Of a stretch of 64,000 bases of DNA, positions 1-12,850 are shown in pieces; position 1 is the stretch's first letter, and each line of letters begins with the position of its first letter. The notes under the pieces are model-generated. The model was not told the DNA's origin. It saw only the letters and a program-made list of their open reading frames with translations, and did not search any database. Made by a program: the position numbers and the translations under genes. Source of the DNA: Pseudoalteromonas sp. N1230-9 (GTDB taxonomy: Bacteria; Pseudomonadota; Gammaproteobacteria; Enterobacterales; Alteromonadaceae); contig NZ_CP090419.1 of the NCBI RefSeq assembly GCF_032716425.1, positions 518,501 through 582,500 of the forward strand, written 5' to 3'.

Positions 1-37
1 ATATATTATATCAATATTGCTTAGGGATGAATGTCTA

Positions 38-925
38 ATGGGATTCGATAAACGGACGTTTTGTATTTATGAGGTGTCTCAAAAAAACTCTCTGCTTGCG
101 GGTGTGTTGACTGAATTTGACTTGTCAGACTTGAATAGCCATGTGTTATTACCTCATGAGTCTGTTAGTGTTTCACATGCGATGAAACTAAAAAAATACG
201 TTACCCAAAAGCAGTTTGTTTTGCCTCCTAGTCTCTTAATTGGCCCGCTTGACATAAATTTATTTGCTTGGCGCACTGCGAGTGAAAAAGTAGCTAGTTG
301 GGAAAATGAGAGCGATAAAAGCGAACACAGTATTTATTTAATTAAATGTGACTCCATAAACCAGCAACTTTATAATTTATTATCTAACAAGCAAGATTGG
401 TTGATTGCAGATGGCCACCATCGGGTATTTGCAGCCAAACAGTTACACTCATCTCAAAGAAAGTTAATGGTTTGGCTTACAGCAAAAGAAGATGTTGTCG
501 TGAAAAGTTTTACGCTTCAAGTCAAAATTTCAACCCCCCTGCACATGCAAACCCTTGTAAAGCATCTAGCGCAATTTGGTATTGTTGAATGTGATAAAAA
601 GCTAGCAGATTACGCGCTTGTGAATAAAGACAAGACGAGGTACTTTTCTTTACACGGAAATAATGCTGACTCTTATCGTATTCAAACTCAGCTGCGTCAG
701 GCTTTGTGCAAGCTACCGCAGTTTGTGAGCCTTGTTCCGTCATCTATTAGTACGACTAGCGAGGACGCATTAACGATCACTGTGTCATGCCGAGATCCAT
801 ACATTGAAGATATATTTGCTGCCGCCAAAGCGGGCAAATACTTTCCTGAAAAGTCGACCTTATTTACGCATAAGGCCGACAGTCGAGTGCTTGATTATTT
901 AAATCAACAGGCAGTTTGTGCTTAA
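38..925 (+). CDS. DUF1015-family-like protein, possible ParB-fold serine kinase (shortened)
   Basis: The 295-residue product resembles the middle and C-terminal parts of DUF1015 proteins. It has the signature ADGHHR near residues 124-129, an upstream LLPHES segment like the family's 'pHE' motif, and a C-terminal KAGKYFPEKST segment like 'G..FP.KST.F.PK'. Family members are usually about 400 residues, so roughly the first 100 (the PPYD segment) appear to be absent. The ATG at 38 is preferred over the TTG at 17 because AGGG precedes it; only 37 bases lie upstream in the window, so a longer gene in another frame cannot be excluded. The DGHHR motif also occurs in ParB/Srx-fold free-serine kinases (SerK, SbnI). 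It converges on an SbnA/SbnB operon whose substrate would be O-phosphoserine, so a serine-kinase role is a reasonable but untested inference. Confidence 0.6.
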   Translation: MGFDKRTFCIYEVSQKNSLLAGVLTEFDLSDLNSHVLLPHESVSVSHAMKLKKYVTQKQFVLPPSLLIGPLDINLFAWRTASEKVASWENESDKSEHSIYLIKCDSINQQLYNLLSNKQDWLIADGHHRVFAAKQLHSSQRKLMVWLTAKEDVVVKSFTLQVKISTPLHMQTLVKHLAQFGIVECDKKLADYALVNKDKTRYFSLHGNNADSYRIQTQLRQALCKLPQFVSLVPSSISTTSEDALTITVSCRDPYIEDIFAAAKAGKYFPEKSTLFTHKADSRVLDYLNQQAVCA

Positions 926-926
926 A

Positions 927-941
927 GCCCTCGCAGAGGGC
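927..941. terminator. Hairpin between convergent genes
   Basis: GCCCTC-GCA-GAGGGC is a perfect 6-bp stem directly after the DUF1015 stop and before the stop of the convergent aminotransferase gene. There is no clear T-run on either side, so termination is only suggested. Confidence 0.4.
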
Positions 942-946
942 GATAC

Positions 947-2059
947 TTATAATTGTTTAAATGCTTCAAGCACTCTAAGGTTTTGCTCTGGAAGCCCGAT
1001 AGTTACTCTGACAAAATGATCAAAACCAGATTCTAGCCAAGGTTTTATCATTATTCCTTGTTGCAGAAACAAAGATGCAACATGCGCAGACGGCTGCTTT
1101 ACATCAATAAATAAAAAGTTGGCTAGACTTGGCGCGACAAAATACCCAAGCTCAGTGAGTGCGGTGCTGAGTTTTTCTCTTTCGCGGTTTGTTTGCGTGA
1201 CTGTGTCTGCCAAATAAGCGGGATCTTGCAGTACAGCAATCGCCGCCAGTTGTGCCAGTCGATTTACATTGTAAGGTGTACGTATGCGATGTAGATAATC
1301 TGCTAATTGTGCATTTGCTATTACGCCGTAACCCACTCTAAGTCCTGCAAGACCATAAGCTTTAGAAAAAGTCCGTAATACCGCATAGGGACGAGGTTGA
1401 ACTTGAAGTAGTGCTAAACTGTCGACAAACTCTTTATGGCCTTGGGCATATTCGCAATATGCTTCATCGATGACGATAACCGTATTGAGTGGACAGGCAT
1501 CGATTATACGCTGTAGGTTTTTGGCATCAAACGTACAACCAACCGGGTTGGACGGATTGGCAAGCATCAGCATTTTTAAGTCTGGATGGTGTGCGATAGT
1601 ATTGAGCCAATCATCAATTCGGTAGGATAGATCGCTTTGCATCGGCACTTCTAGGACCTTTGCCCCCATCATATTGGCGTAAATTCCATGCAGTGCAAAG
1701 GTAGGCTTGGCCACTAACACTTTATCGCCTTGATTAAGAAACGCCTTGCAGAGCATCGAGAGTACATCCTCAGAGCCATTACCGATCACAATTTGTTCTT
1801 TAGCAACGTTAAGTTTTGTAGCTAGGCGCTCGCTTAGCTCTGTGCATTGACTGTCTGGATAGCAGCTAGCGGTATGCAACTGTGCTTTAAATGCATTAAG
1901 TGCTGTTGGGCTCGACCCTAAAGGGTTTTCATTGACCGACAGGTTTATCATATTGGGGTGCAGATTGTGCGCTGTTGCTTGCTCAATGGTTTGCCCTGCC
2001 CCGTAGGGAGGCAGCGCAATCACTTCTTTGCGGGCGGGGTTTAGCATTGTCCTTGTCAT
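947..2059 (-). CDS. HisC-like PLP-dependent aminotransferase
   Basis: This 370-residue fold-type-I aminotransferase resembles histidinol-phosphate aminotransferase. Visible motifs are SVNENPLGSSP near the N-terminus, ANPSNPVG, the VIDEAYCEY segment, and the PLP-lysine region FSKAYGLAGLRVGYG. It is the last gene of the minus-strand operon and its start overlaps the MATE gene stop by 4 bp, so it is translationally coupled. HisC relatives are often reused in secondary metabolism to transaminate amino acids or amino aldehydes. In this context, next to diaminopropionate genes, it more likely modifies an amino-acid building block than serves histidine synthesis. The substrate is unknown. Confidence 0.8.
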   Translation of the reverse strand: MTRTMLNPARKEVIALPPYGAGQTIEQATAHNLHPNMINLSVNENPLGSSPTALNAFKAQLHTASCYPDSQCTELSERLATKLNVAKEQIVIGNGSEDVLSMLCKAFLNQGDKVLVAKPTFALHGIYANMMGAKVLEVPMQSDLSYRIDDWLNTIAHHPDLKMLMLANPSNPVGCTFDAKNLQRIIDACPLNTVIVIDEAYCEYAQGHKEFVDSLALLQVQPRPYAVLRTFSKAYGLAGLRVGYGVIANAQLADYLHRIRTPYNVNRLAQLAAIAVLQDPAYLADTVTQTNREREKLSTALTELGYFVAPSLANFLFIDVKQPSAHVASLFLQQGIMIKPWLESGFDHFVRVTIGLPEQNLRVLEAFKQL

Positions 2060-3432
2060 GCGTTTTGCTCCTTGAGTGATGTGGGATTAAGTAAGCGATT
2101 AACTCTGTGATTAAAAAGCCAAATCTCAGATAGTGCTGTGACCGCAAGCCCTAATGTTATGGCGTACCAAACGCCTAAAATACCCAAACCAAAAAATTGT
2201 TGAAATAACCAGGCACCAGGAAGGCCAATGCACCAATAGCCGATTAAAGACAGCATGAGAGTGCTTTTAACATCGCCAAGTCCGCGCAAAATACCAAGCC
2301 CGATATTTTGCCACGCGTCAAAAAACTGCAAAAAGGCGGCAATAACAAGTAACTCTATGGCGATAACCACTACATCGGAGTTTTGTAATTCTTCAGCACT
2401 TAAAAATGGCAGCAGCACAAGTTCGGGGACAAATAAATAGATTAAGGCGAAGACCGTCATGACTGCTGCACCGCAAACAATGCCCAAATTGCCGATGCGT
2501 TTGGCATGATGAAAGTTTCCCGCAGCATTGGCTTCGCTAATGTAGATAGAGCAAGCGGATGAAATCCCAGCCGACACCATAAATACGATGTACACCATTT
2601 GGCTTACCACGTTATGAGCGGCTAAGGCATTCACTCCGAGTGTTGCTACAAATAACGCAAGCACGGTGAAAAATCCGGCTTCAAGCCCATATGTTGCGCC
2701 AATTGGCACGCCCATTTTCCATGTTTTGCTAAGCGCTTCGCGGTCGGTTTGCCAAAACTTCAAAGTGAGGTAAGGGCTTAGTACGTCATCACGTTTGGCA
2801 AATAGCACAAACAATAAAAATGATAAATACAGCACGATGCATGTTGCAGCCGCAACTCCCACAAAGCCAAGTTGTGGTAGACCAAACTTACCAAAAATAA
2901 GGCCGTAATTGAGCACAACCGTAAGAACAACAGACACACCTGTTATTAACATCAGAGGTCCTGGTCTTTTTAGCCCCACACTAAAGTGGCGTATACTTTG
3001 AAACCAAAAACAGGGTAATAATCCCAACGCGACAACAGCTAAATATTGTGTCGTCAAATTGGCAATAGACTCGGATGTACCAATAAACCTTAAGAAAGGT
3101 CCCATGGCAAACATTATAGCGGCGAATACTAGGCCTAAAAATGTCCCGATAAGCATGCTGGCGTTAAAAAGAGAGGTGATCTGATCTTGCTTATCCTTGC
3201 CGATTGCATCAGACACCAAGTTGCCTGTTGCCGTGACCACGCCCGTCCCCATGGTTCTAAATTGATTAAAAATACCAATGGCGAGACCGCCAGCAGCCAG
3301 CTCTAGTGGGCTCAACATGCCGAGCATGATGAGATCAATCGTTGCAATTGCCACGTAGAGCAGGTTAGTCAGAATAAGCGGCCCTGCGAGTTGGCTTACT
3401 TTAAAAATATCGGCGCGGGCTGAAGCTACCAT
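2056..3432 (-). CDS. MATE-family multidrug/metabolite efflux transporter
   Basis: A 458-residue, highly hydrophobic inner-membrane protein of the length and 12-helix pattern expected for MATE (NorM/DinF-like) cation-coupled antiporters. The N-terminal half has the usual start (LAGPLILTNLLYVAIATIDL) and the second half repeats the architecture. It lies inside the operon, overlapping both neighbours by a few bases. In a locus with a TonB receptor and diaminopropionate genes, the most economical role is export of the made product; MATE and MFS pumps play this role in several siderophore clusters. Specificity cannot be read from the sequence. Confidence 0.85.
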   Translation of the reverse strand: MVASARADIFKVSQLAGPLILTNLLYVAIATIDLIMLGMLSPLELAAGGLAIGIFNQFRTMGTGVVTATGNLVSDAIGKDKQDQITSLFNASMLIGTFLGLVFAAIMFAMGPFLRFIGTSESIANLTTQYLAVVALGLLPCFWFQSIRHFSVGLKRPGPLMLITGVSVVLTVVLNYGLIFGKFGLPQLGFVGVAAATCIVLYLSFLLFVLFAKRDDVLSPYLTLKFWQTDREALSKTWKMGVPIGATYGLEAGFFTVLALFVATLGVNALAAHNVVSQMVYIVFMVSAGISSACSIYISEANAAGNFHHAKRIGNLGIVCGAAVMTVFALIYLFVPELVLLPFLSAEELQNSDVVVIAIELLVIAAFLQFFDAWQNIGLGILRGLGDVKSTLMLSLIGYWCIGLPGAWLFQQFFGLGILGVWYAITLGLAVTALSEIWLFNHRVNRLLNPTSLKEQNA

Positions 3433-4409
3433 AGCGTTACTTCCTCCACGTTTTCTTGTGTGATAGCAAAGTCGGCAACGGCTCGTCCGAGTGCCACGTC
3501 AGTAATAATCATGCCGCTGTTATAGACAAAGATAATTTCATCAGGGTGAGTTCGTGCCGGCTTCTCACCATTGAGTATTTCAGTCAATGTTGCATCAACA
3601 GCGGGTAGTTTACCGTTCTCGTCTAATAAATCGTCTCCGGTGACCTTCATTTGTTCTGCATCTGTTGTGAGCAATCTATCCGCTCGATGTAGCACCGATT
3701 TTTCGATTCCATAGCCAACTAAAATCACCACCGCGCCGGGTTTTAACCATTCATATTTAATGTTCTCTTTGGCGGATAATCCAGTAACGGCAAGGATCAC
3801 GTCGGCTTGTCTTACTGAAGCTTCTAAGTCTTGTGATACCGCAACGTGTCGCTGTGGGTGATGAGCTTTTAGTTTTTGTTGAACTGATTCTAAACCTGCT
3901 TGGTAGCTGCCATGAACGGTTAGGTGTGTGAGTTGTGGTAATGCAGTAACGAGCATAGGTAAAGCGATTTGCCCTTGAACACCTGTGCCCACAACTAATG
4001 CATGCTTAGCATCTGAATGAACGGCATATTTTGCAAACAAGGCGGAGGTGGCTGATGTGCGCATAGGGCCTAGTTCTTTTACATCCATTAAAGCCACAGG
4101 ATGGCCTGTGGCATCATCGCAAAGAAAGATAAAAGAATAGAACTGGTATTGGTTACGGCTTCTATCTGGGTCATATTCGTAGACCACTTTAAATCCTACG
4201 GTATTACTGGCAGCATCGCGACCGGCCATACTATAGGCAATGGAGCGGCCATCTTGTGGTGTCATAATGACTTTAAGTGGGTTGGCAGAGTCGGGATGAT
4301 GCAGTGAGCGAAAGGCGTTTTCCACTACCTCAATAACTTTGCTATAGGGGAAATTAAGTTGCGCTAGTCGGGCTTCATTCAGTATCGGTAGCGTTGTTTG
4401 TTGGGTCAT
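3426..4409 (-). CDS. sbnB: SbnB-like NAD-dependent dehydrogenase (ornithine cyclodeaminase family)
   Basis: 327 residues of the ornithine cyclodeaminase / mu-crystallin family with a central Rossmann segment (VVGTGVQGQIALP). Motifs around the substrate pocket include VMTPQDGRSIAYSMAGRD and the VGFKVVYEYDP strand. In Staphylococcus aureus, SbnB oxidises N-(1-amino-1-carboxyl-2-ethyl)-glutamate with NAD to release L-2,3-diaminopropionate and 2-oxoglutarate. The assignment here rests on the family match plus the immediately adjacent SbnA-like gene (2-bp gap). A plain ornithine cyclodeaminase or other imino-acid reductase role is less likely given that pairing. Confidence 0.8.
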   Translation of the reverse strand: MTQQTTLPILNEARLAQLNFPYSKVIEVVENAFRSLHHPDSANPLKVIMTPQDGRSIAYSMAGRDAASNTVGFKVVYEYDPDRSRNQYQFYSFIFLCDDATGHPVALMDVKELGPMRTSATSALFAKYAVHSDAKHALVVGTGVQGQIALPMLVTALPQLTHLTVHGSYQAGLESVQQKLKAHHPQRHVAVSQDLEASVRQADVILAVTGLSAKENIKYEWLKPGAVVILVGYGIEKSVLHRADRLLTTDAEQMKVTGDDLLDENGKLPAVDATLTEILNGEKPARTHPDEIIFVYNSGMIITDVALGRAVADFAITQENVEEVTLW

Positions 4410-4411
4410 GG

Positions 4412-5470
4412 TTAGGCTCTCGCGGCAGGTTTATATTGCGTTAATAGGTCATCGAGTTCTTGCTCGATGTTAATGTCGATGAGGTCGTGTTTTGCCATCC
4501 AATCATCATTGAAGAGCGTGTCGAGATACTTCTCACCACCATCACAAACGAGCACCACAAATACGCTATCGGCGGGAGCAGTTTTTAATGCTTGTAGTGC
4601 TTCATAAATAACACCACCAGCCGAGCCACCGACCATCAGGGCGTAGTGTTTAGCAAGGTATCTGGCGGTATTAAACGCTTGTTTGTCAGATACCTTTACG
4701 CCTTTGTCGATAAGCTCGTATTCAATGACAGGCCCTATCTCTGCACCTTCTGGCGTACCCGTTCCAGATTGATGATAATTCAGCCCAGGCCCGCCAAAAA
4801 TCACAGAACCCACAGGTTCTACACCAATCGTTGTTAGTTGATGACAACCTAAGTCGCGCAGAGCCCTTGTTGTGCCGCATAGCGAACCACCCGTGCCAAC
4901 TGCACCGACAAGGTGAGTAATGTGCTCACCTAGTTCATGAAACACTTCTTGTGCGAGCCCATTATAGCCGCGGCTATTGGCAAAATTATTGTGTTGTGCT
5001 GTCCAAAAAGCCCCTTGTTCTTTTGCTAGTGTGGCAGCCATTGCGTCGCGAATATCGGTCGATAAGCTGTCATCTCCGGCTTCGCTAACGCAGATCACTT
5101 CTGCGCCAAAGGCTTTCATATTGCTAATTTTTTCTTTTGCCGCATGGTTATCTACAAGCGCGGTGAAGCGATAACCGCGCTCTGCTGCAAGCAGTGCAAG
5201 ACCAACACCGGTATTGCCAGAGGTTGATTCAACAACCCAGCCTCCAGGCTTTAGTTGGCCACTGGCTTCTGCTTCATCTAACATGGATTTCGCCATGCGA
5301 ATTTTAGCACTGCCAGTGGGATTAAATTGCTCAAGCTTAAGGTACAGCTTGCTGCCGTTCGGCAGGCTTAAAAACTGCATTAGCGGCGTGTTACCTATAC
5401 TTTGCGATACCCTTAAATACGGGGTTAAATGCAATGTCGAGGCGAGCGGATGCTGCGCATTTATGTTCAT
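4412..5470 (-). CDS. sbnA: SbnA-like PLP synthase for diaminopropionate precursor
   Basis: 352 residues of the cysteine synthase / CBS fold-type-II family. The PLP lysine lies in FNPTGSAKIRMAK, the substrate loop is VESTSGNTGVGLALLA, and the phosphate-binding glycine run is VGAVGTGGSLCGT. SbnA condenses O-phospho-L-serine with L-glutamate; SbnB then cleaves the product to L-2,3-diaminopropionate. The adjacent SbnB-like gene and the absence of any serine acetyltransferase nearby argue for this role over cysteine synthesis. The region after the lysine reads IRMAK rather than the common KDR. The gap to the upstream decarboxylase gene is 35 bp. Confidence 0.82.
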   Translation of the reverse strand: MNINAQHPLASTLHLTPYLRVSQSIGNTPLMQFLSLPNGSKLYLKLEQFNPTGSAKIRMAKSMLDEAEASGQLKPGGWVVESTSGNTGVGLALLAAERGYRFTALVDNHAAKEKISNMKAFGAEVICVSEAGDDSLSTDIRDAMAATLAKEQGAFWTAQHNNFANSRGYNGLAQEVFHELGEHITHLVGAVGTGGSLCGTTRALRDLGCHQLTTIGVEPVGSVIFGGPGLNYHQSGTGTPEGAEIGPVIEYELIDKGVKVSDKQAFNTARYLAKHYALMVGGSAGGVIYEALQALKTAPADSVFVVLVCDGGEKYLDTLFNDDWMAKHDLIDINIEQELDDLLTQYKPAARA

Positions 5471-5505
5471 AAATAGGCTCCTTTATGTTATGTCGTTGGG
5501 TATTT

Positions 5506-6840
5506 TTAGCTAAGTAGTTGCCAAGAAAGCATATTGCTCTCCCACGTTACGGCGATTTTTCGAGGTAATGGCATAGAGTGAAACTCGGATTCATTCGAGT
5601 CCATTTGATATCCTGCGGTGTTGAGATAAACCATAAGGTCATCGCGCTGTGGTAGTTGCGATAAGGGAATAAACCGCCAACTCAACATGTCACTATCTAG
5701 GCATGTTGCGCCGCCAAAGGCTACCCGATACTCTCCTAGTATGCCGTTTGAGTGTTGTGAGAGTAGTAATGGACTCGGTAAATATTCACTTTCAAACCAT
5801 TGCTCTGACAATGATAAACTTGAGCCTGAAAGTGTCGCGATATAACAGTCGGATGTGCCAAGGTGGGGCTTAATCCCTTGTACTTTAAATAAGCTAATAC
5901 CGGCTTGATCGAGCAGTGCGCGCCCAGGTTCAAGCATCAATGTAAGGTCTTTTAGCTGTAATGCTTCTAATGCACTTTGTCCATGCTCGTTCTTCACCGC
6001 CAAAATAGCGAGCAAGGTATCCTCAAGGCTTTGCTTGGTATAATAGGGGTAAAACCCTGCAAAGGTTTTACCTGCAAAAAAGCATTCAAAGTCCAAGGCG
6101 TGTTGCCAGTGTTCGTCCTCTAAGTAGGAAATTGGGAGGCCGCCACCAATATTAATTTTTGATGGCGAGAGTCCCATTTGCTGGGCCTCATCTATTGCGC
6201 TGACTAAAGTATGAATGCTGTTGCCACGTGCATGTGGGCAATAACCACTTAGATGACAGCTAAATCCTTCTAAGCCCACCCATTCTTTGTATTCTCTGCA
6301 TTGGGTTAATAATGACGAAAGCTGGCACAGTGAACTGCCAAATCGTGAGGTTTTAGTCGATTGTGTTTGCAAACGTAGCAGCACTCGAGCGGGGATTTTT
6401 CGCTGCTTGGCTATGGCAATGACACAGTCTAATTCAGCATATGAATCAATGGCGATAAGCGCTTGATGAACAAGTGCTAAGTTAATAAGTGTATCTGACT
6501 TATGTGGGCCAGATACGCCAATTTTTACACCTTTAATACCCCCGCTTAAGGCAAGTTCAAACTCCTGTACACTCGCAACATCTACTCCAATATCGTATTC
6601 AGACGCAGCTTGGGTAAAGCACTGGGCTTTGTTAGCTTTTTTCGCGAAGTAAACCTCATGCTTGAGTCCCTGCTTAGTTAAAGCATCTTGCAGTGTTTCG
6701 ATATTTTCAGTAAAGCGCTGTGGAAACACTAAGTGTAGCGGCGCGCCCAACGCCGCTATCCATTCAAATAGTTTAGCTTTACTTTCTATTAGTAAGCTTT
6801 GTGTTTGTGAATGAAGTTTTGCAGCGAGGGCGTTATTCAT
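5506..6840 (-). CDS. Fold-type-III PLP decarboxylase-like enzyme (Orn/Lys/DAP decarboxylase 2 family)
   Basis: 444 residues with an N-terminal alanine-racemase-like barrel and a C-terminal beta domain. The PLP-lysine motif is FAKKANK (Lys68), the phosphate-binding glycine segment INIGGGLP, the LMLEPGRALLDQAG strand is typical, and the C-terminal GGATCLDSDML matches the catalytic-cysteine motif of the family. It resembles siderophore-pathway decarboxylases of the SbnH/PvsE kind and possibly the Y4yA group; I cannot separate these by eye. It overlaps the permease stop by 4 bp. It may decarboxylate diaminopropionate or a diaminopropionate adduct. Confidence 0.75.
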   Translation of the reverse strand: MNNALAAKLHSQTQSLLIESKAKLFEWIAALGAPLHLVFPQRFTENIETLQDALTKQGLKHEVYFAKKANKAQCFTQAASEYDIGVDVASVQEFELALSGGIKGVKIGVSGPHKSDTLINLALVHQALIAIDSYAELDCVIAIAKQRKIPARVLLRLQTQSTKTSRFGSSLCQLSSLLTQCREYKEWVGLEGFSCHLSGYCPHARGNSIHTLVSAIDEAQQMGLSPSKINIGGGLPISYLEDEHWQHALDFECFFAGKTFAGFYPYYTKQSLEDTLLAILAVKNEHGQSALEALQLKDLTLMLEPGRALLDQAGISLFKVQGIKPHLGTSDCYIATLSGSSLSLSEQWFESEYLPSPLLLSQHSNGILGEYRVAFGGATCLDSDMLSWRFIPLSQLPQRDDLMVYLNTAGYQMDSNESEFHSMPLPRKIAVTWESNMLSWQLLS

Positions 6841-8306
6841 ACAACTAACACCTCTTTGTTATTCGCACTGTCTAGTTTGTTAACGCGACGTTTTGCTATA
6901 AGGAGAAGGCCAACGGCTAGTAGCAGCAACCAGATTAATGGCGTGTAGCTGTTCACAGGTGTAGCAAATTCGCTGCTAAATTGAGGAATATCCGCAAGAT
7001 TCGTGAGCGTTGGCTTTGCGCTACAACCATCACACGGTGCAAAGTCTCCTCTTTGATTGGCTTTAGCAATCTCGTTGGCAAAGAAACGTTGTAGTGCTTG
7101 ATGATGAGCTTCAACTTCGCTCATAAAAGCGTAGTGACGCGTTAAACCGTTTCCAGCTAAATCAACCAATAGTGTTTGGACAATGAGCGCAGGGGAAAGA
7201 TACTGTAGTTTTTGAGCGCTTTGTTGTTGTGCTTGCTGCGCGTTTAAAAAGCGTGCATCTTGAACTTCCATTGCGCGTTCAACAGAGTTTATTGTCGCAA
7301 TTTTTTTTGTGGCGTAATCACTGGCGCCACTGCCATTTTTTGCAAGCTCTGGGTGGTCTTGAAAATACTGAGCTAAGGTTTTTTCACTCGCTTTTTGAGC
7401 ATCATCGCTGGCTGCTCGAAGACTATCTATATAGTGAATACGTGAAGGCGTTGGGTCGAGTAAAGCAATGCTTGTATTGACCAAAGCTGGAACAACAATC
7501 ACCAAGGCGAGCCAACAGGTAACGAGAGTCGCAGCATTGTTTGCGGCACTTTTGGCCCGACTATTAACCCAAGCTGTTAAAGCAATCCAAAACCCAGAAT
7601 AACACAGTACAATAAGGTTATAGCTAAGTAGTTCAGTAACACCCATCTGGTCTCTTATGATAACCAAAAGCAGGCTACTTATGAGTAAAAATGGCATTAC
7701 AATCAACGCACTTCGTAGTAGTAATTGGTAGGTGAGTAGATGCGTGGCACTGCCACCTTGAAGCATTAGTAGCCTTAATTGCCCGCCTTGGCGCTCACTG
7801 GCCAAGGCATTAAAACAAATGCTAATAATGAGTAGTGGCAGTAAATAGATCACCACAAAGCTTAAGTCGAACTGACCAAGTAACAGTGAAAGCGGGTGGA
7901 CATAATCATATTGATGAACAATATGCTGCTTTTCTTTAATCAGCATTTTAAAGTAATACGGTAATACATCCGCTTGTCCCGTAGCGATAGGAGCCGTTGC
8001 GAGCGGAGTTTTAGTAGCATAATTTTGCATCAAGTAAAAAGCTTGTCCGCGCAGGTCGTACGGGTCTTCCCACCATTTATGATTTTCGGTACTCGCGAGC
8101 CTTTCGGGTAATCCTGCTTTAGCATTTTGAATTGTTTGTTGCTGCATTTGTTGAGCAGCAAGTACTACGTCGCGTTGCTTATTGGCAAAATAATGGGCGT
8201 TAAAGAATGCCACGATTGCGAGCACGCTGGTGGTAAGAAAAAGTGTGAGTACGAGTTTCTCTCGCCATAGGTTTTTAAGCTCAGTGGCTAATATTAGGCG
8301 CTTCAT
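6837..8306 (-). CDS. ABC-2 type permease with large extracytoplasmic domain (DUF3526-like), copy 1
   Basis: 489 residues. One membrane helix near residues 18-36 is followed by about 120 residues of soluble, probably periplasmic sequence, then five or more helices (from about residue 150), a second long soluble stretch and a final helix before a short cytoplasmic tail. This layout matches DUF3526/ABC-2 permeases. Two cysteines in CDGC sit in the last extracytoplasmic stretch. The gene overlaps its neighbours by 4 bp on both sides and is followed upstream by a second permease of similar plan, so the two probably form a heterodimer with the adjacent ATPase. Substrate and direction are unknown. 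Confidence 0.75.
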   Translation of the reverse strand: MKRLILATELKNLWREKLVLTLFLTTSVLAIVAFFNAHYFANKQRDVVLAAQQMQQQTIQNAKAGLPERLASTENHKWWEDPYDLRGQAFYLMQNYATKTPLATAPIATGQADVLPYYFKMLIKEKQHIVHQYDYVHPLSLLLGQFDLSFVVIYLLPLLIISICFNALASERQGGQLRLLMLQGGSATHLLTYQLLLRSALIVMPFLLISSLLLVIIRDQMGVTELLSYNLIVLCYSGFWIALTAWVNSRAKSAANNAATLVTCWLALVIVVPALVNTSIALLDPTPSRIHYIDSLRAASDDAQKASEKTLAQYFQDHPELAKNGSGASDYATKKIATINSVERAMEVQDARFLNAQQAQQQSAQKLQYLSPALIVQTLLVDLAGNGLTRHYAFMSEVEAHHQALQRFFANEIAKANQRGDFAPCDGCSAKPTLTNLADIPQFSSEFATPVNSYTPLIWLLLLAVGLLLIAKRRVNKLDSANNKEVLVV

Positions 8307-9703
8307 CTTTGTTCCTCTAAACGTAGCTTTTTAATTGCAAATAAACTAAGTAGCACCAGTACAATCAGCCAAAAGGCAAAGCTTATAAGGCTAATAACGT
8401 AGTGAGGCAGGTAGTGAGCAAAACGTGGATATTGGTATGAAAACTCAGGGATCTGCTGCCATAACTCTTTTCCAGCGGTGTAATGTCCCTGGGCCTTATG
8501 ACCATGATCTCTTTGATTAAAGTTAAGGACTTCTTGCATTAGGCGACGATGTTGCTCTGCTGCATTTTCAAAAGATTGCTGGTGGCTAAAATCAGTGGCT
8601 GCGGTCGCCATCGAAAGTGTTTGTACTGCGATAAAGGGGGTTAGCAACCCTGCCAACTGGTAGCTTTGTGACTGTGCTTCAAGCTGTTCTAAACGGGCTT
8701 CAAATAAGCGATCAAAGATTTTGTCGGCGTACTGTTCACCAAATTGGAGTTGTGCTCCGGCATAATCGAAGGGTAAGTCTGCTACTTGGCTGACGCCATA
8801 CTGGGCGAGTGTTTGCTGCTTAAATTTTTCAATCGCATCGAGGCGTGCATTGGTATAAACCTCGCTTTCAAGTTTTGCTTGAAACGCTTGACCAGACCCT
8901 TGTGGATGCAAGGTGGTTGCAATATTCATTGCAAGTTTTGGCAGTAATAATGTTGCGAATGCCCAAATAGTAAGTAATGTAATTAATGCGCGTCGTGCCG
9001 TAGGAAGTAGGCTTGAGAGTGTCGTAGTGATTAATGCCCAAAGCAATAGGTAAATTAAATAAGAGAGTAAAAATAGAGCACTTCTTAGCGTATAAGGTGC
9101 CTCGTTCGCAGTTTGGCTATAAAGTAAAAAAAGTGCAACGGGTAGCAAGAACAGGCATGAAAGTGTGAAAAGCACAGCACATTTAGCAAAAAACAACTTT
9201 GCTGGGCTTGCACCTGCTGCAAGTAGTTGTTTTAAAGTGCCTTGCTCGCGTTCCCGTGCAAGTAATGGGTAGCCAATTAAAATGATCAATAAGGGTAATA
9301 ACACTTGCAACACGAAGGCGGGTGATAAGCTCCCAAAGCGCGACAACGGCACGTTATCTTGTGCGCTTCTAAATAAGCTATCGTTACGAATGTGCGCCTC
9401 TAACCTCAATACATTTCCTTGATAGGCTTGTAATCCATCATCGAGTGCTGCCAGCGGCGTGGTGGGCTTAACGACATAAATGCCGTAATGAGCGGCAGAG
9501 TGGGGGCCTTTCTCACCTTGGTTTAGCCAGCGTAATTGCTCTGATTGAGATACCTCGTTTACGGCTTGTTGATAGCTTTGATGGCTTTTAAAACCAGTCA
9601 CACAGGCCAGTAATAATAACAAAATAGCAATGCCACTTAGCCAGAGTGCTTGACCTTGCCGCTTAGTATCGAGCCATTCTTTTTTAAAAGTACTTTGTAA
9701 CAT
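8303..9703 (-). CDS. ABC-2 type permease with large extracytoplasmic domain (DUF3526-like), copy 2
   Basis: 466 residues with the same plan as its neighbour: an N-terminal helix at about residues 20-38, a soluble segment of about 90 residues, a helix bundle beginning near 'PAFVLQVLLPLLIILIGYP', the cytoplasmic loop LLAREREQGTLKQLLAAG typical of ABC-2 permeases, a second soluble segment and a C-terminal helix. It overlaps the ATPase stop by one base and the other permease start by 4 bp. The pair plus ATPase form a complete ABC transporter embedded between the TonB receptor and the biosynthesis genes. Confidence 0.75.
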   Translation of the reverse strand: MLQSTFKKEWLDTKRQGQALWLSGIAILLLLLACVTGFKSHQSYQQAVNEVSQSEQLRWLNQGEKGPHSAAHYGIYVVKPTTPLAALDDGLQAYQGNVLRLEAHIRNDSLFRSAQDNVPLSRFGSLSPAFVLQVLLPLLIILIGYPLLAREREQGTLKQLLAAGASPAKLFFAKCAVLFTLSCLFLLPVALFLLYSQTANEAPYTLRSALFLLSYLIYLLLWALITTTLSSLLPTARRALITLLTIWAFATLLLPKLAMNIATTLHPQGSGQAFQAKLESEVYTNARLDAIEKFKQQTLAQYGVSQVADLPFDYAGAQLQFGEQYADKIFDRLFEARLEQLEAQSQSYQLAGLLTPFIAVQTLSMATAATDFSHQQSFENAAEQHRRLMQEVLNFNQRDHGHKAQGHYTAGKELWQQIPEFSYQYPRFAHYLPHYVISLISFAFWLIVLVLLSLFAIKKLRLEEQR

Positions 9704-10422
9704 TAGGCGCCCACCTTGATATGCTTAAGGTATACAGATTCAAGTTGGACTTCTTTTAATTGTTCGAAAAGTAACGTGTCGACTAGTTGCCCTTGATTAA
9801 TAATTGCAACACGATGCGCATCCTCTTGAGCACGGTATAAGTCGTGGGTCGCCATTAAGATTGCGACCCCTTGTTTCGCTAGCGATTGTATGAGTTGACT
9901 AAACTCATGGCTAGCTGATGGATCAAGGCCTGAAGTTGGTTCATCTAAAATCAATGCTTTAGCTTGTTTTGCAAGCGCTATAGCAATTCCTACTTTTTGT
10001 CTCATCCCTTTTGAATAGGTTGCAACGGGTTTATCTACAGCATGGCTTGGTAGTTTTACTTCAGCGAGTAGGGCACGAAATTCGTCATCGCTTTTGTCGA
10101 TACTTGCCACTTTGCTGAAATAGGCGAGATTTTCAAGTCCAGTTAGACGAGGATAGAGAGCCACTTGCTCGGGAATATACGCTAAATGCTGCCTCGCTGT
10201 TACAACATTGAGTTGTGGGTTTACCCCTGCAATAGTGATTTCACCTGCATCAGGTTGTAAAAAACCTAACAGGCAATTAATGGTGGTTGTTTTTCCTGCG
10301 CCGTTAGGACCAAGCAGCGCTAAAATCTCTCCTTGATGTACGGCCAAGCTTAAACCTTGAAGGGCTTGATATTCGCCAAAGCGCTTTTGTAAGTTATTAA
10401 TTTGAATAATGGGTGTGGTCAT
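9703..10422 (-). CDS. ABC transporter ATP-binding protein
   Basis: 239 residues with Walker A GPNGAGKTTT, Q-loop YIPEQV, the signature region YSKGMRQKVGIA (a degenerate LSGGQ as in ABC-2 drug and NosF-type ATPases), Walker B ALILDEPTSGLD and the switch histidine in MATHD. It starts 9 bp after the TonB receptor stop with the ribosome site AAGGAT and overlaps the first permease gene, so it powers the two DUF3526-like permeases. Confidence 0.92.
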   Translation of the reverse strand: MTTPIIQINNLQKRFGEYQALQGLSLAVHQGEILALLGPNGAGKTTTINCLLGFLQPDAGEITIAGVNPQLNVVTARQHLAYIPEQVALYPRLTGLENLAYFSKVASIDKSDDEFRALLAEVKLPSHAVDKPVATYSKGMRQKVGIAIALAKQAKALILDEPTSGLDPSASHEFSQLIQSLAKQGVAILMATHDLYRAQEDAHRVAIINQGQLVDTLLFEQLKEVQLESVYLKHIKVGA

Positions 10423-10431
10423 GATTTATCC

Positions 10432-12537
10432 TTAAAAGCTGACGCTTAATGATGCAATAAGTGTCCGGCCGCGACCTGGCGCGACGCCCCAATCTATGCC
10501 TTTAGCACCGCCAGACAGCCAGTACTCTTTATCAAATAGGTTTTCGGCCTTAATTCGCAGTGTGGTGTTAAAATCACTAAAGTGATATTTGGCACCTAAA
10601 TCAAAGCGTGTATAAGACGGAAGGTTCAAATTGTTATTAACATTTTGCTCCCGTTCACCCACATGAAACATGCCTGCATTTACACTTAGGTTTTCTAAGA
10701 AAGGGAGTTGATAATCTAAAAATAAATTTGCTTGGAATTTAGGAACATTTGCAGGGCGGTTACCATTGAGTGCAGGTTCACCATCAAGCTCATCCAAACT
10801 AGGGTCCATAAATGTTATCGAAGCAACAGTTGATAGGCCCTCAATAAACGAGCCGCTGGCATTAAGTTCGATGCCTTTATGAGATTGGGTCCCGTCTTGT
10901 ACAAAGTAATTGGTGATGTGGTTATGGTATTCCAGCATTTTTTCAATTTCGAATACGGCAACGGAATAGTTCATTGAGTCAGTTTGGTATTTTATACCGG
11001 CTTCTATTTGTTCACTTTCTTGTGGCCCTAACGATTCGCCCTCGTTAATTGCTCCACTGCCAATTACTGCTACGCCACCTTCTCCAGCACCTTCAGAGTA
11101 ACTGGCATAAAAAGCGAGTTGATCGTTTGGGTTATAATTTAAGCCAATAATAGGTGTGTTGAAGGTGCGATCATCTAATGTTGATTTAGCTTGGTTTGGT
11201 GCGGTTTGATCTTTTTTATATTGAATATGACGCAGCCCTAGAGTCGCATAAAATACATCATTAAAATGCAGGGTATCGGTAATGAAAAATGAGCTTTCGG
11301 TTGTGTCGGTTGTTGTTGGGTCGGGGTATTCTGGGAAGACAGGTTTACTTACATGTATAGGGTCAAATATGTTACCAACAGGATTGTCTAACTCAAACCA
11401 GCGACCATCTTTAGATTGGTAGTCACGAATACTTGCGCCAACAACGAGTTCATGTTCAATACCTGCAGTAACAAGTTGCCCTGTAAAGAAGCTGTGTGCA
11501 GAAACCGTATCATAGGTTTCATCTGGCGTTACTTGAATACTTGCTGATAGAACACTTCCTTCTAAATCAACTGAATATATATCAGGAAAAATAGTGAACC
11601 GGTCATTCCCAGAAAGTGCGACTTGGTTAACCCACTGCCAGTTATCATTGAGCCAAAAATCCACTCGCGCCGCTATATTGAAGGACTCGGTTTTATATTT
11701 TGCCCAAGGTTGGCCAAGTAGTACTTCACTGGTATCTACATAAGGTGGGAGCACGGAACGGCTATCATCATTTGGGTCACGCGCTAAGCCAATAAGAGGT
11801 TGTGATACAGTACTTTTGTCTTGATAGTCGCCATCTAAGCGAATAAAAATACGGTCAGACAGTTGCCAGTCTAGAGCTGCGCTGAAAAAGTACCTTTCTA
11901 GGTCGTCACCACCAGTAAAGTCGCCATTTTTTTCTGCTGCGGCGTTGATACGATAACCAAACGTTTGCTCACTATCTAAAGGACCACCAAAATCTACATG
12001 AATATAACGGCCCGCACGACTACGAAATTCTGTCGTGATATCTAAAAAGGAGTCCATTGTTGGGCGCTTCGTTACATAGTTAATCGTGCCGCCAGGGTTG
12101 TTAAAACCCGAGACTAAGCTTGATGGACCTTTAATAATATCGATTCGTTGAATATTCTCCAGTGGAACATCCTGATAAGGAGCAAGAGCAAGGCCATCTC
12201 GTCTTAGACCGTTTGTCCAATCGAGTTGAAAGCCCCTCAGGCTGACAAAATCAAATACTGTGCCGATAGCCGTATTTTGTACAGATGCATCATTGGCAAG
12301 CACTTCGCTCAACGTTTTTACTCTTTGATTTGTTATTAACTCTTCAGAAAAAGATTGAATAGAAATAGGTAAAAACTGAGGATCTTTAATTCCTAGTGCC
12401 GAGGCATTTACATCTCGGGTACTATAAAGTGGTGTACGCGTACCTTGAACTTCAAGTTTTTCAATAGATTGAGTTGCAAATGATTGCATTGAAAATAAAC
12501 CAGTAAGAGCACTTACTGTTAGAACAGACCTTTTCAT
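10432..12537 (-). CDS. TonB-dependent siderophore receptor
   Basis: 701 residues: signal peptide (about 1-21, ending SFA), plug domain (about 45-150, with SFSEELITNQRVKTLSEVL and DIIKGPSSLVSGFNNPGGTINYVTKR-type sequence), and a 22-strand barrel ending in the aromatic terminus SLSVSF. The plug resembles hydroxamate/citrate siderophore receptors of the FhuE/FpvA class. It is the first gene of the operon and a Fur-type palindrome lies about 96 bp upstream of the ATG, so induction under iron limitation is expected. Its position at the head of a diaminopropionate operon suggests uptake of the ferric form of the locus product. Confidence 0.92.
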   Translation of the reverse strand: MKRSVLTVSALTGLFSMQSFATQSIEKLEVQGTRTPLYSTRDVNASALGIKDPQFLPISIQSFSEELITNQRVKTLSEVLANDASVQNTAIGTVFDFVSLRGFQLDWTNGLRRDGLALAPYQDVPLENIQRIDIIKGPSSLVSGFNNPGGTINYVTKRPTMDSFLDITTEFRSRAGRYIHVDFGGPLDSEQTFGYRINAAAEKNGDFTGGDDLERYFFSAALDWQLSDRIFIRLDGDYQDKSTVSQPLIGLARDPNDDSRSVLPPYVDTSEVLLGQPWAKYKTESFNIAARVDFWLNDNWQWVNQVALSGNDRFTIFPDIYSVDLEGSVLSASIQVTPDETYDTVSAHSFFTGQLVTAGIEHELVVGASIRDYQSKDGRWFELDNPVGNIFDPIHVSKPVFPEYPDPTTTDTTESSFFITDTLHFNDVFYATLGLRHIQYKKDQTAPNQAKSTLDDRTFNTPIIGLNYNPNDQLAFYASYSEGAGEGGVAVIGSGAINEGESLGPQESEQIEAGIKYQTDSMNYSVAVFEIEKMLEYHNHITNYFVQDGTQSHKGIELNASGSFIEGLSTVASITFMDPSLDELDGEPALNGNRPANVPKFQANLFLDYQLPFLENLSVNAGMFHVGEREQNVNNNLNLPSYTRFDLGAKYHFSDFNTTLRIKAENLFDKEYWLSGGAKGIDWGVAPGRGRTLIASLSVSF

Positions 12538-12632
12538 TTTTTTCCAACCAGAATTTAAGTAGTGTAAGTAATTATTGTTTTGTTAAATGTTATAACGTAG
12601 CTAATAAAGCATGTTTAAATTTTAATTGGAAG

Positions 12633-12647
12633 TGATAATAGTTATCA
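12633..12647. promoter_or_regulatory. Fur box
   Basis: TGATAATAGTTATCA is a perfect 6-3-6 palindrome within GTGATAATAGTTATCATT, very close to the Fur consensus GATAATGATAATCATTATC. It lies 96 bp upstream of the TonB receptor start and so should control the whole minus-strand operon. Confidence 0.85.
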
Positions 12648-12810
12648 TTTTATTGTGTTTGTTTTTTTGTTTTGGGAATGGGGATAATAAAAAATGAGCG
12701 CTTATTGTGGCCCGTGGAGATCACCTTTACTAGCAAGTATTAAGTGAACAAAGGCATATTATTAGCCAGCTTATGCGTTGTTATATTATTACGTTTTTAG
12801 ATATAAAGTT

Positions 12811-12850
12811 ATTGTAAATGACTGTAAATGACTGTAAATGACTGTAAATG
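12811..12850. repeat. Four tandem copies of a 10-bp unit
   Basis: ACTGTAAATG occurs three times in a row, preceded by one copy with a single change (ATTGTAAATG). The period of 10 bp places each copy on the same helical face. No function is known. Confidence 0.9.

Follow-up and report, generated by a model that had tools for sequence, protein, structure and literature searches.

What does an operon make that couples a siderophore-type receptor to diaminopropionate-type enzymes and carries no recognizable ligase, and which metal would its product serve? This question is raised by a 64,000-nucleotide stretch of DNA (hereafter, the window) from Pseudoalteromonas sp. N1230-9 (assembly GCF_032716425.1; contig NZ_CP090419.1, positions 518,501 to 582,500), whose genome comprises 4.63 Mb in two contigs. 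Our data indicated that the operon at the left of the window probably directs the synthesis of a small aminopolycarboxylate metallophore assembled without a ligase, of the kind of ethylenediaminedisuccinic acid (EDDS) and ethylenediaminesuccinic acid hydroxyarginine (EDHA), in a subtype marked by a HisC-like transaminase and controlled by both zinc (through Zur) and iron (through Fur). What was computed comprises the gene set, its recurrence, the lack of a free ligase of the nonribosomal peptide synthetase (NRPS) or NRPS-independent siderophore (NIS) type, the exclusivity of HisC-like and dioxygenase genes in the loci examined, promoter motifs and a kinase fold.

Organization of the operon

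Nine minus-strand genes (12537-947) form the operon, with a TonB-dependent siderophore-type receptor first (10432..12537; TIGR01783, 331.7 bits, over the cut-off) and a HisC-like type I pyridoxal phosphate (PLP) transaminase, the mark of the subtype, last (947..2059; TIGR01141, 309.3 bits, over the cut-off of 276.55). Between them lie an ABC ATPase (9703..10422; PF00005), two ABC-2 permeases with DUF3526 domains (8303..9703 and 6837..8306; PF12040 and PF12679 in both), a type III PLP decarboxylase of the Y4yA type (5506..6840; PF02784; some relatives are named Y4yA family), an SbnA-like type II PLP synthase (4412..5470; PF00291), an SbnB-like dehydrogenase of the ornithine cyclodeaminase family (3426..4409; PF02423), whose best solved relative is 4m54, named a putative ornithine cyclodeaminase, and a MATE exporter (2056..3432; PF01554), all on the minus strand. 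An earlier, sequence-only reading had described nine mostly overlapping genes, in agreement with the overlaps at five of the eight junctions, and its gene families also stood, with the ABC transporter now refined to an ABC-2 type with DUF3526 permeases. That reading called two enzymes SbnA/SbnB-like, which holds at the family level but not by the NCBIfam cut-offs (TIGR03945, 235.8 bits against 349.95; TIGR03944, 108.3 bits against 326.9). The range it gave starts at position 38, which belongs to a convergent plus-strand DUF1015 gene (38..925; PF06245) and not to the operon. The decarboxylase is 100% identical to its counterpart in Pseudoalteromonas sp. CO133X (L011, same species) and was present (E ≤ 1e-40) in 11 of the 108 Pseudoalteromonas genomes searched, the window's own included.

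Search for a ligase

The claim that the operon holds no NIS or NRPS ligase was borne out. No IucA/IucC synthetase accompanies it, and no ligase was seen among the open reading frames (ORFs), read by eye, in the 10 kb to the left of the window, where an unrecognized ligase nearby had been considered and was rejected; the next 10 kb leftward (L003) was covered by a motif scan only. No NRPS condensation domain was found in the genome, and its only IucA/IucC gene lies on contig 2 inside a cluster of its own, which by eye resembles a desferrioxamine/bisucaberin-type set, with a decarboxylase, a monooxygenase, an acyltransferase, a synthetase and a TonB receptor. This cluster, at ~245-253 kb (L004, L005), looks complete, with its own TonB receptor; in the stretches scanned, Fur-like sites reached at most 12/14 and Zur-like boxes did not exceed 9.0 bits. 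Elsewhere in the genome, the search turned up no free ligase of the NIS or NRPS type, ATP-grasp enzymes not being searched for. A search for such genes near a second Fur box had been suggested earlier, and the pattern TGATAATNNTTATCA does occur at two exact places in the genome; the second was rejected as the marker of a ligase, as it precedes a small ORF and then a gene read by eye as a class II fumarase. Among relatives, no ligase was annotated near the shared core genes in the four loci viewed gene by gene, and none was recognized by eye next to them in nine mapped loci (seven with the HisC-like gene's lineage and two, L028 and L039, of neither subtype described below), where flanking ORFs were not searched by family.

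These results bear on the alternative, raised by the sequence-only reading, that the operon makes free L-2,3-diaminopropionate, in the way of SbnA and SbnB in the staphyloferrin B pathway, and that a ligase gene at another place in the genome serves to assemble it. In its favor, the best NCBIfam matches include the SbnA and SbnB models, and a kinase that is SbnI-like by fold adjoins the operon; yet both proteins fall short of the SbnA/SbnB cut-offs, the sole NIS gene belongs to the complete-looking desferrioxamine-like cluster, no condensation domain was found, and the mapped relatives likewise yielded no ligase by annotation or by eye. On these searches, which covered NIS and NRPS enzymes, we consider this alternative quite improbable. 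Staphyloferrin B (sbnA, sbnB, sbnH, sbnI) nevertheless offers a likeness in its SbnA- and SbnB-like enzymes, type III PLP decarboxylase and SbnI-like kinase fold, in contrast to which the present operon is without an NIS synthetase.

A recurrent core shared with EDHA loci

The sequence-only reading had proposed comparing the operon across genomes. Scanning 84,980 species genomes gave 310 encoded decarboxylase relatives, and we examined the best 80 of these 310 together with four plasmid loci taken from 243 plasmid records with an SbnB-like match (84 loci in total). With core genes called by tblastn (E ≤ 1e-6, query coverage of 45% or more, anywhere in the stretch), a full core of decarboxylase, SbnA-like synthase, SbnB-like dehydrogenase and MATE exporter recurred in 76 of the 84 loci. 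In seven of the eight incomplete loci, the contig breaks off close to the core (L035, L051, L061, L077, L084, L087 and L088).

The full core is also present in Streptomyces scabiei 87.22 (L075, 0.59-0.61 Mb), as the sole close copy in that genome. By interpolating tag numbers, we take this position to be scab_5231-5311. Published systems are cited here and below from excerpts of the papers, and in these scab_5231-5311 is the EDHA cluster of S. scabiei 87.22 (PMC8914351), a four-gene AesA-D operon is described for a Burkholderia anthina clade (PMC10702961), and EDDS biosynthesis is set apart from both NRPS and NIS pathways (PMC4993170). The operon shares gene-level traits of this class: SbnA-like and SbnB-like enzymes, a type III PLP decarboxylase and a MATE exporter occur together, as at the S. 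scabiei EDHA locus, with neither an NRPS nor an NIS ligase. The earlier notion of an undescribed pathway is not supported: the EDHA locus already in print contains this core, and its class is described as belonging to neither the NRPS nor the NIS pathways. By its gene content, the pathway thus appears to belong to the known ligase-free aminopolycarboxylate kind (EDDS/EDHA), with the HisC branch as a variant.

EDHA itself (Streptomyces, AesA-D; MIBiG BGC0002567) is a close comparison by genes, with SbnA-like, SbnB-like, Y4yA-type and MATE proteins at the S. scabiei locus and no ligase seen, although EDHA-type loci carry a VioC-like dioxygenase and no HisC, whereas the operon here carries HisC. 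Its cluster is described as iron-responsive (PMC10702961), and a Nocardia aminopolycarboxylate cluster with a MATE gene is given as iron-controlled (PMC10920908). [S,S]-EDDS of Amycolatopsis japonicum is likewise an aminopolycarboxylate made without NRPS or NIS enzymes and, in the excerpt consulted, is under Zur control; it was compared by description and not by gene set. The opine-like metallophores staphylopine and pseudopaline (the latter Zur-controlled in the excerpted account) are also small and ligase-free, but the enzyme families of our operon differ from theirs. The core was present in Burkholderia sp. MS389 (L027) and B. anthina (L028), with no arginine hydroxylase detected within 10 kb in either. 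L028 corresponds to the published AesA-D operon at the level of the species, that operon being described for one of its clades. An EDHA label based on AesA-D alone may fail to separate EDHA from an EDDS-like product.

Several observations weigh against this assignment. The match to EDHA and AesA-D rests on locus and gene count and not on the protein identities of AesA-D, and the likeness to EDDS is one of description and not of genes. The SbnA-like and SbnB-like proteins are family-level matches under the curated cut-offs, and the HisC-like protein clears the model for ordinary HisC (309.3 versus 276.55 bits). Finally, L026, which is not cut at a contig end, has a decarboxylase and an SbnB-like protein without an SbnA-like or MATE match. 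In its 21-kb stretch, this Pseudomonas nabeulensis locus also contains the receptor and DUF3526 genes and no HisC match; judged from gene content, it appears to be a broken or rearranged cluster.

Two exclusive subtypes

Among the 76 full-core loci, 48 carry a TauD-family dioxygenase and 20 a HisC-like gene, with none carrying both and eight carrying neither. A Rhodococcus representative of the TauD genes matched the VioC-like model at 219.6 bits and the GntD model at 246 bits, both below cut-off; a VioC-like match fits because the hydroxyarginine of EDHA would require such an enzyme. No VioC-like arginine beta-hydroxylase was matched by tblastn in L011 or in the other 19 HisC loci. In a core tree of three proteins from 76 loci (L026, L035, L051, L061, L077, L087, L088 and L094 were omitted, either by choice or because segments were missing), one clade (support, 0.998) united the 20 HisC loci with L033, and 20 of its 21 members kept the HisC gene. 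L033 (Xylophilus ampelinus) lies within this clade without a HisC-like gene, and its flank gave no TonB receptor match. The operon HisC proteins themselves formed a single clade (20/20; support, 0.996) apart from 15 paralogs of six genomes. That the operon gene is the cell's ordinary HisC was considered and rejected, given this separate clade and a second HisC-like protein on contig 2 (28% identity). With one clade for the loci and another for the HisC proteins, the HisC subtype looks like a single lineage with a shared history, and on these trees the exclusivity of HisC and dioxygenase looks nearer to a single evolutionary change than to 20 separate ones. DUF3526 permeases occur in 10 of the 20 HisC loci as well as in L026. 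The cluster of the actinomycete Actinoplanes sandaracinus (L062) is of the HisC type and nested among Gammaproteobacteria in the core tree, which makes a transfer between phyla likely.

A different view of the transaminase is that it only recycles the amino donor or makes oxaloacetate, so that the product would be EDDS or a very near analogue and no new compound. EDDS is described as Zur-controlled in A. japonicum, and the HisC subtype has Zur-like boxes, in keeping with this view. The eight loci with a core but neither HisC nor dioxygenase imply that HisC is seemingly not needed for the core chemistry; these loci, together with the retention of HisC in 20 of 21 clade members, speak against a mere EDDS producer, which we regard as unlikely. 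In the literature searched, which mostly excluded subscription papers, we found no account of HisC-bearing clusters of this type, and within that literature the HisC-bearing branch is the only one without a described product.

A putative serine kinase and the proposed pathway

The product of the convergent DUF1015 gene has no solved relative and no NCBIfam match by sequence, and its link to SbnI/SerK comes from the fold model only. The modelled fold has SbnI and the free serine kinase SerK as its best matches, common over most of the protein, and the protein is therefore predicted, from this model, to be a free serine kinase of the SbnI/SerK type supplying O-phosphoserine. Its residue E41, a candidate counterpart of the catalytic E30 of SerK, is invariant in seven sequences. 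ORFs with a DGHHR motif lie in the same stretch as the core in L092, L093, L039, L046, L068 and L020-L025, and that of L092 is a weak SerK match (39 bits). A serine kinase may thus be a common partner of the core.

The pathway that we propose follows the EDDS biosynthetic scheme. Every reaction, the order of the steps, the partners of both halves, the product and its metal are inferred. Serine would first be phosphorylated by the DUF1015 protein. The SbnA-like enzyme is predicted to perform a beta-replacement on O-phosphoserine, swapping the phosphate for the amine of an amino acid and yielding a conjugate; a precedent is the fungal aspergillomarasmine A (AMA) synthase, which in the excerpted account joins O-phosphoserine units to the amine of aspartate (PMC8319579). 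In that system, known here by description, one fungal enzyme does everything. Possibly, though we hold this step only tentatively, the HisC-like transaminase would turn a second amino acid into a 2-oxo acid. In the next step, reductive amination by the SbnB-like dehydrogenase is predicted to attach this 2-oxo acid to the free amine, after which the Y4yA-type decarboxylase, predicted to act on the conjugated diaminopropionate unit, would take off the serine-derived carboxylate and leave an ethylenediamine bridge between two amino-acid halves. Export would proceed through the MATE protein, perhaps together with the ABC-2 transporter, and the metal complex would be re-imported through the TonB receptor.

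Probable zinc and iron control

The sequence-only reading had placed a Fur-type palindrome before the operon, and TGATAATAGTTATCA is indeed found at 12633..12647, 96 bases before the receptor start, with 14/14 agreement with the consensus; no other site in the window reaches 13/14. The palindrome is present in L011 and absent from the related loci L012-L017.

Upstream Zur-like sequences, which the sequence-only reading had missed, were scored with a matrix built from five sites in the promoters of three receptor genes of the host, three of these sites lying next to genes for a FUR-family protein and ZrgA. Two of the training receptors, read in part, matched the ZnuD model at 127.5 and 236 bits (the cut-off of 950 is for the whole protein). 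The pattern GATAYANTATAAC derived from the training sites matches the genome exactly at eight places (three for the reversed pattern), four of them in training promoters; one of the other four precedes ZigA (691.7 bits, over cut-off), one precedes another receptor that matches ZnuD in part (109.1 bits), and the remaining two have no clear zinc link. The likely Zur protein of the genome scored 164.7 bits (cut-off, 167). Next to ZrgA and a ZnuD-like receptor, at C1:3630374-3633736 (L104), lies another FUR-family gene, which is divergent; the better Zur match is at C1:3241116. No match to ZnuA was found in the genome, in a search whose control was positive in 11 of 14 genomes.

By this matrix, the two highest-scoring of 127,964 window positions are both upstream of the operon: a plus-strand box at 12778..12796, 241 bases before the receptor start (18.3 bits), and a minus-strand box at 12585..12603, 48 bases before it (13.2 bits). 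In 500 shuffles of the upstream region, 18.3 bits was reached by none and 13.2 bits by eight. Among L011-L017, the 12778 box occurs only in L011; it could also serve the divergent porin gene. The sequence GACTGTAAAT stands in three head-to-tail copies at 12820-12849, within the intergenic stretch that precedes the operon. At the position of the 12585 box, a promoter alignment revealed a block, TACGTTATAACATTT in the window, that is kept with small changes in L012-L016 (15.8-17.9 bits by the host matrix), while GTGATATTATCAC occupies the aligned place in Thalassomonas (L017; 12.4 bits). A third Zur-like box, most of which lies at 1..14 with its first five bases left of the window, directly precedes the DUF1015 gene; at 20.1 bits (9996-10014 of the left-hand stretch L002) it is the best site of that stretch. 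The corresponding boxes score 18.3-20.4 bits in L011-L016, and L017 has the GTGATATTATCAC palindrome there (9.5 bits).

A wider promoter test relied on general consensus motifs, with dinucleotide-shuffled sequences for comparison (p ≤ 0.02), with L094 left out of the neither-type loci and actinobacterial dioxygenase loci left out because other regulators act there; related species in these counts are not independent. Zur-like sites passed in 13 of 20 HisC loci and in none of the 13 proteobacterial dioxygenase loci or the 7 neither-type loci; for Fur-like sites, the corresponding counts were 11/20, 4/13 and 0/7. Nine of the 20 HisC loci had both, and the passing Zur-like site of L011 was that species' own one at 12778. 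With longer consensus forms (p ≤ 0.025), Zur passed in 15/20, and Fur in 1/20 (19-base form) or 6/20 (7-1-7 form).

Not all of this favors zinc. The box at the conserved position scores just 13.2 bits in the window, a value that eight of the 500 shuffles attained, and the 18.3-bit box is absent from the orthologs. Among L012-L016, only L013 passes the Zur test at p ≤ 0.02 and only L014 the longer-consensus test (p ≤ 0.025), so that the Zur case for these loci is carried by the promoter alignment and the host-matrix scores. It could accordingly be argued that the product is an iron siderophore only and that chance matches in AT-rich DNA account for the Zur-like boxes, given that most L012-L016 promoters fail the general Zur tests, that the Fur palindrome is unique in the window and that Fur-like sites occur in 11 of the 20 HisC-type promoters, including eight of the nine in Pseudomonas. 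Chance would not readily yield Zur-like sites confined to the HisC type among the promoters compared, nor the box before the kinase gene in L011-L016, nor the placement of two of the four non-training motif places before zinc genes (ZigA and a ZnuD-like receptor). We judge an iron-only siderophore unlikely. Iron control as the whole story was rejected on the promoter comparison, in which Zur-like boxes are shared and the Fur palindrome is not. The earlier description of the operon as iron-regulated therefore stands in part: the palindrome is real and most Pseudomonas members have Fur-like sites, but a Zur-like box is what the loci commonly have where the palindrome is missing. From these motifs, zinc and iron are both likely to be in play. 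Dual Zur/Fur control is also known for staphylopine. The nearest precedent for zinc control here is that of EDDS.

The same promoters bear on the idea that the product is a secreted antimetabolite or toxin-like amino acid and not a metallophore. MATE and ABC-2 genes are present, and diaminopropionate chemistry is also used for antibiotics, but a TonB receptor leads the operon and metal-regulator boxes lie upstream of it, making this idea very improbable.

Implications

Ligase-free chelator clusters of the EDDS/EDHA kind are easily overlooked. The S. scabiei EDHA cluster escaped antiSMASH in a 2022 study (PMC8914351), and antiSMASH 7 now has an aminopolycarboxylic-acid type (PMC10702961), according to the excerpts consulted. 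Whether the HisC clusters constitute a third, undescribed class of ligase-free aminopolycarboxylate metallophores for zinc and iron, in which a transaminase-made 2-oxo acid would be joined reductively to a phosphoserine-derived diamine, seems to us evenly balanced; such a class would span Pseudoalteromonas, Thalassomonas, Cellvibrio, Microbulbifer, Acinetobacter, Pseudomonas and Actinoplanes, and thus cross phyla. If this holds, the operon would provide a zinc-scavenging route for a bacterium in which ZnuA was not found, and the transaminase-bearing, zinc-controlled class would represent a new chelator. It would also supply a genetic rule for predicting the chemistry of such clusters, namely a dioxygenase or a transaminase and, in the loci examined, never both.

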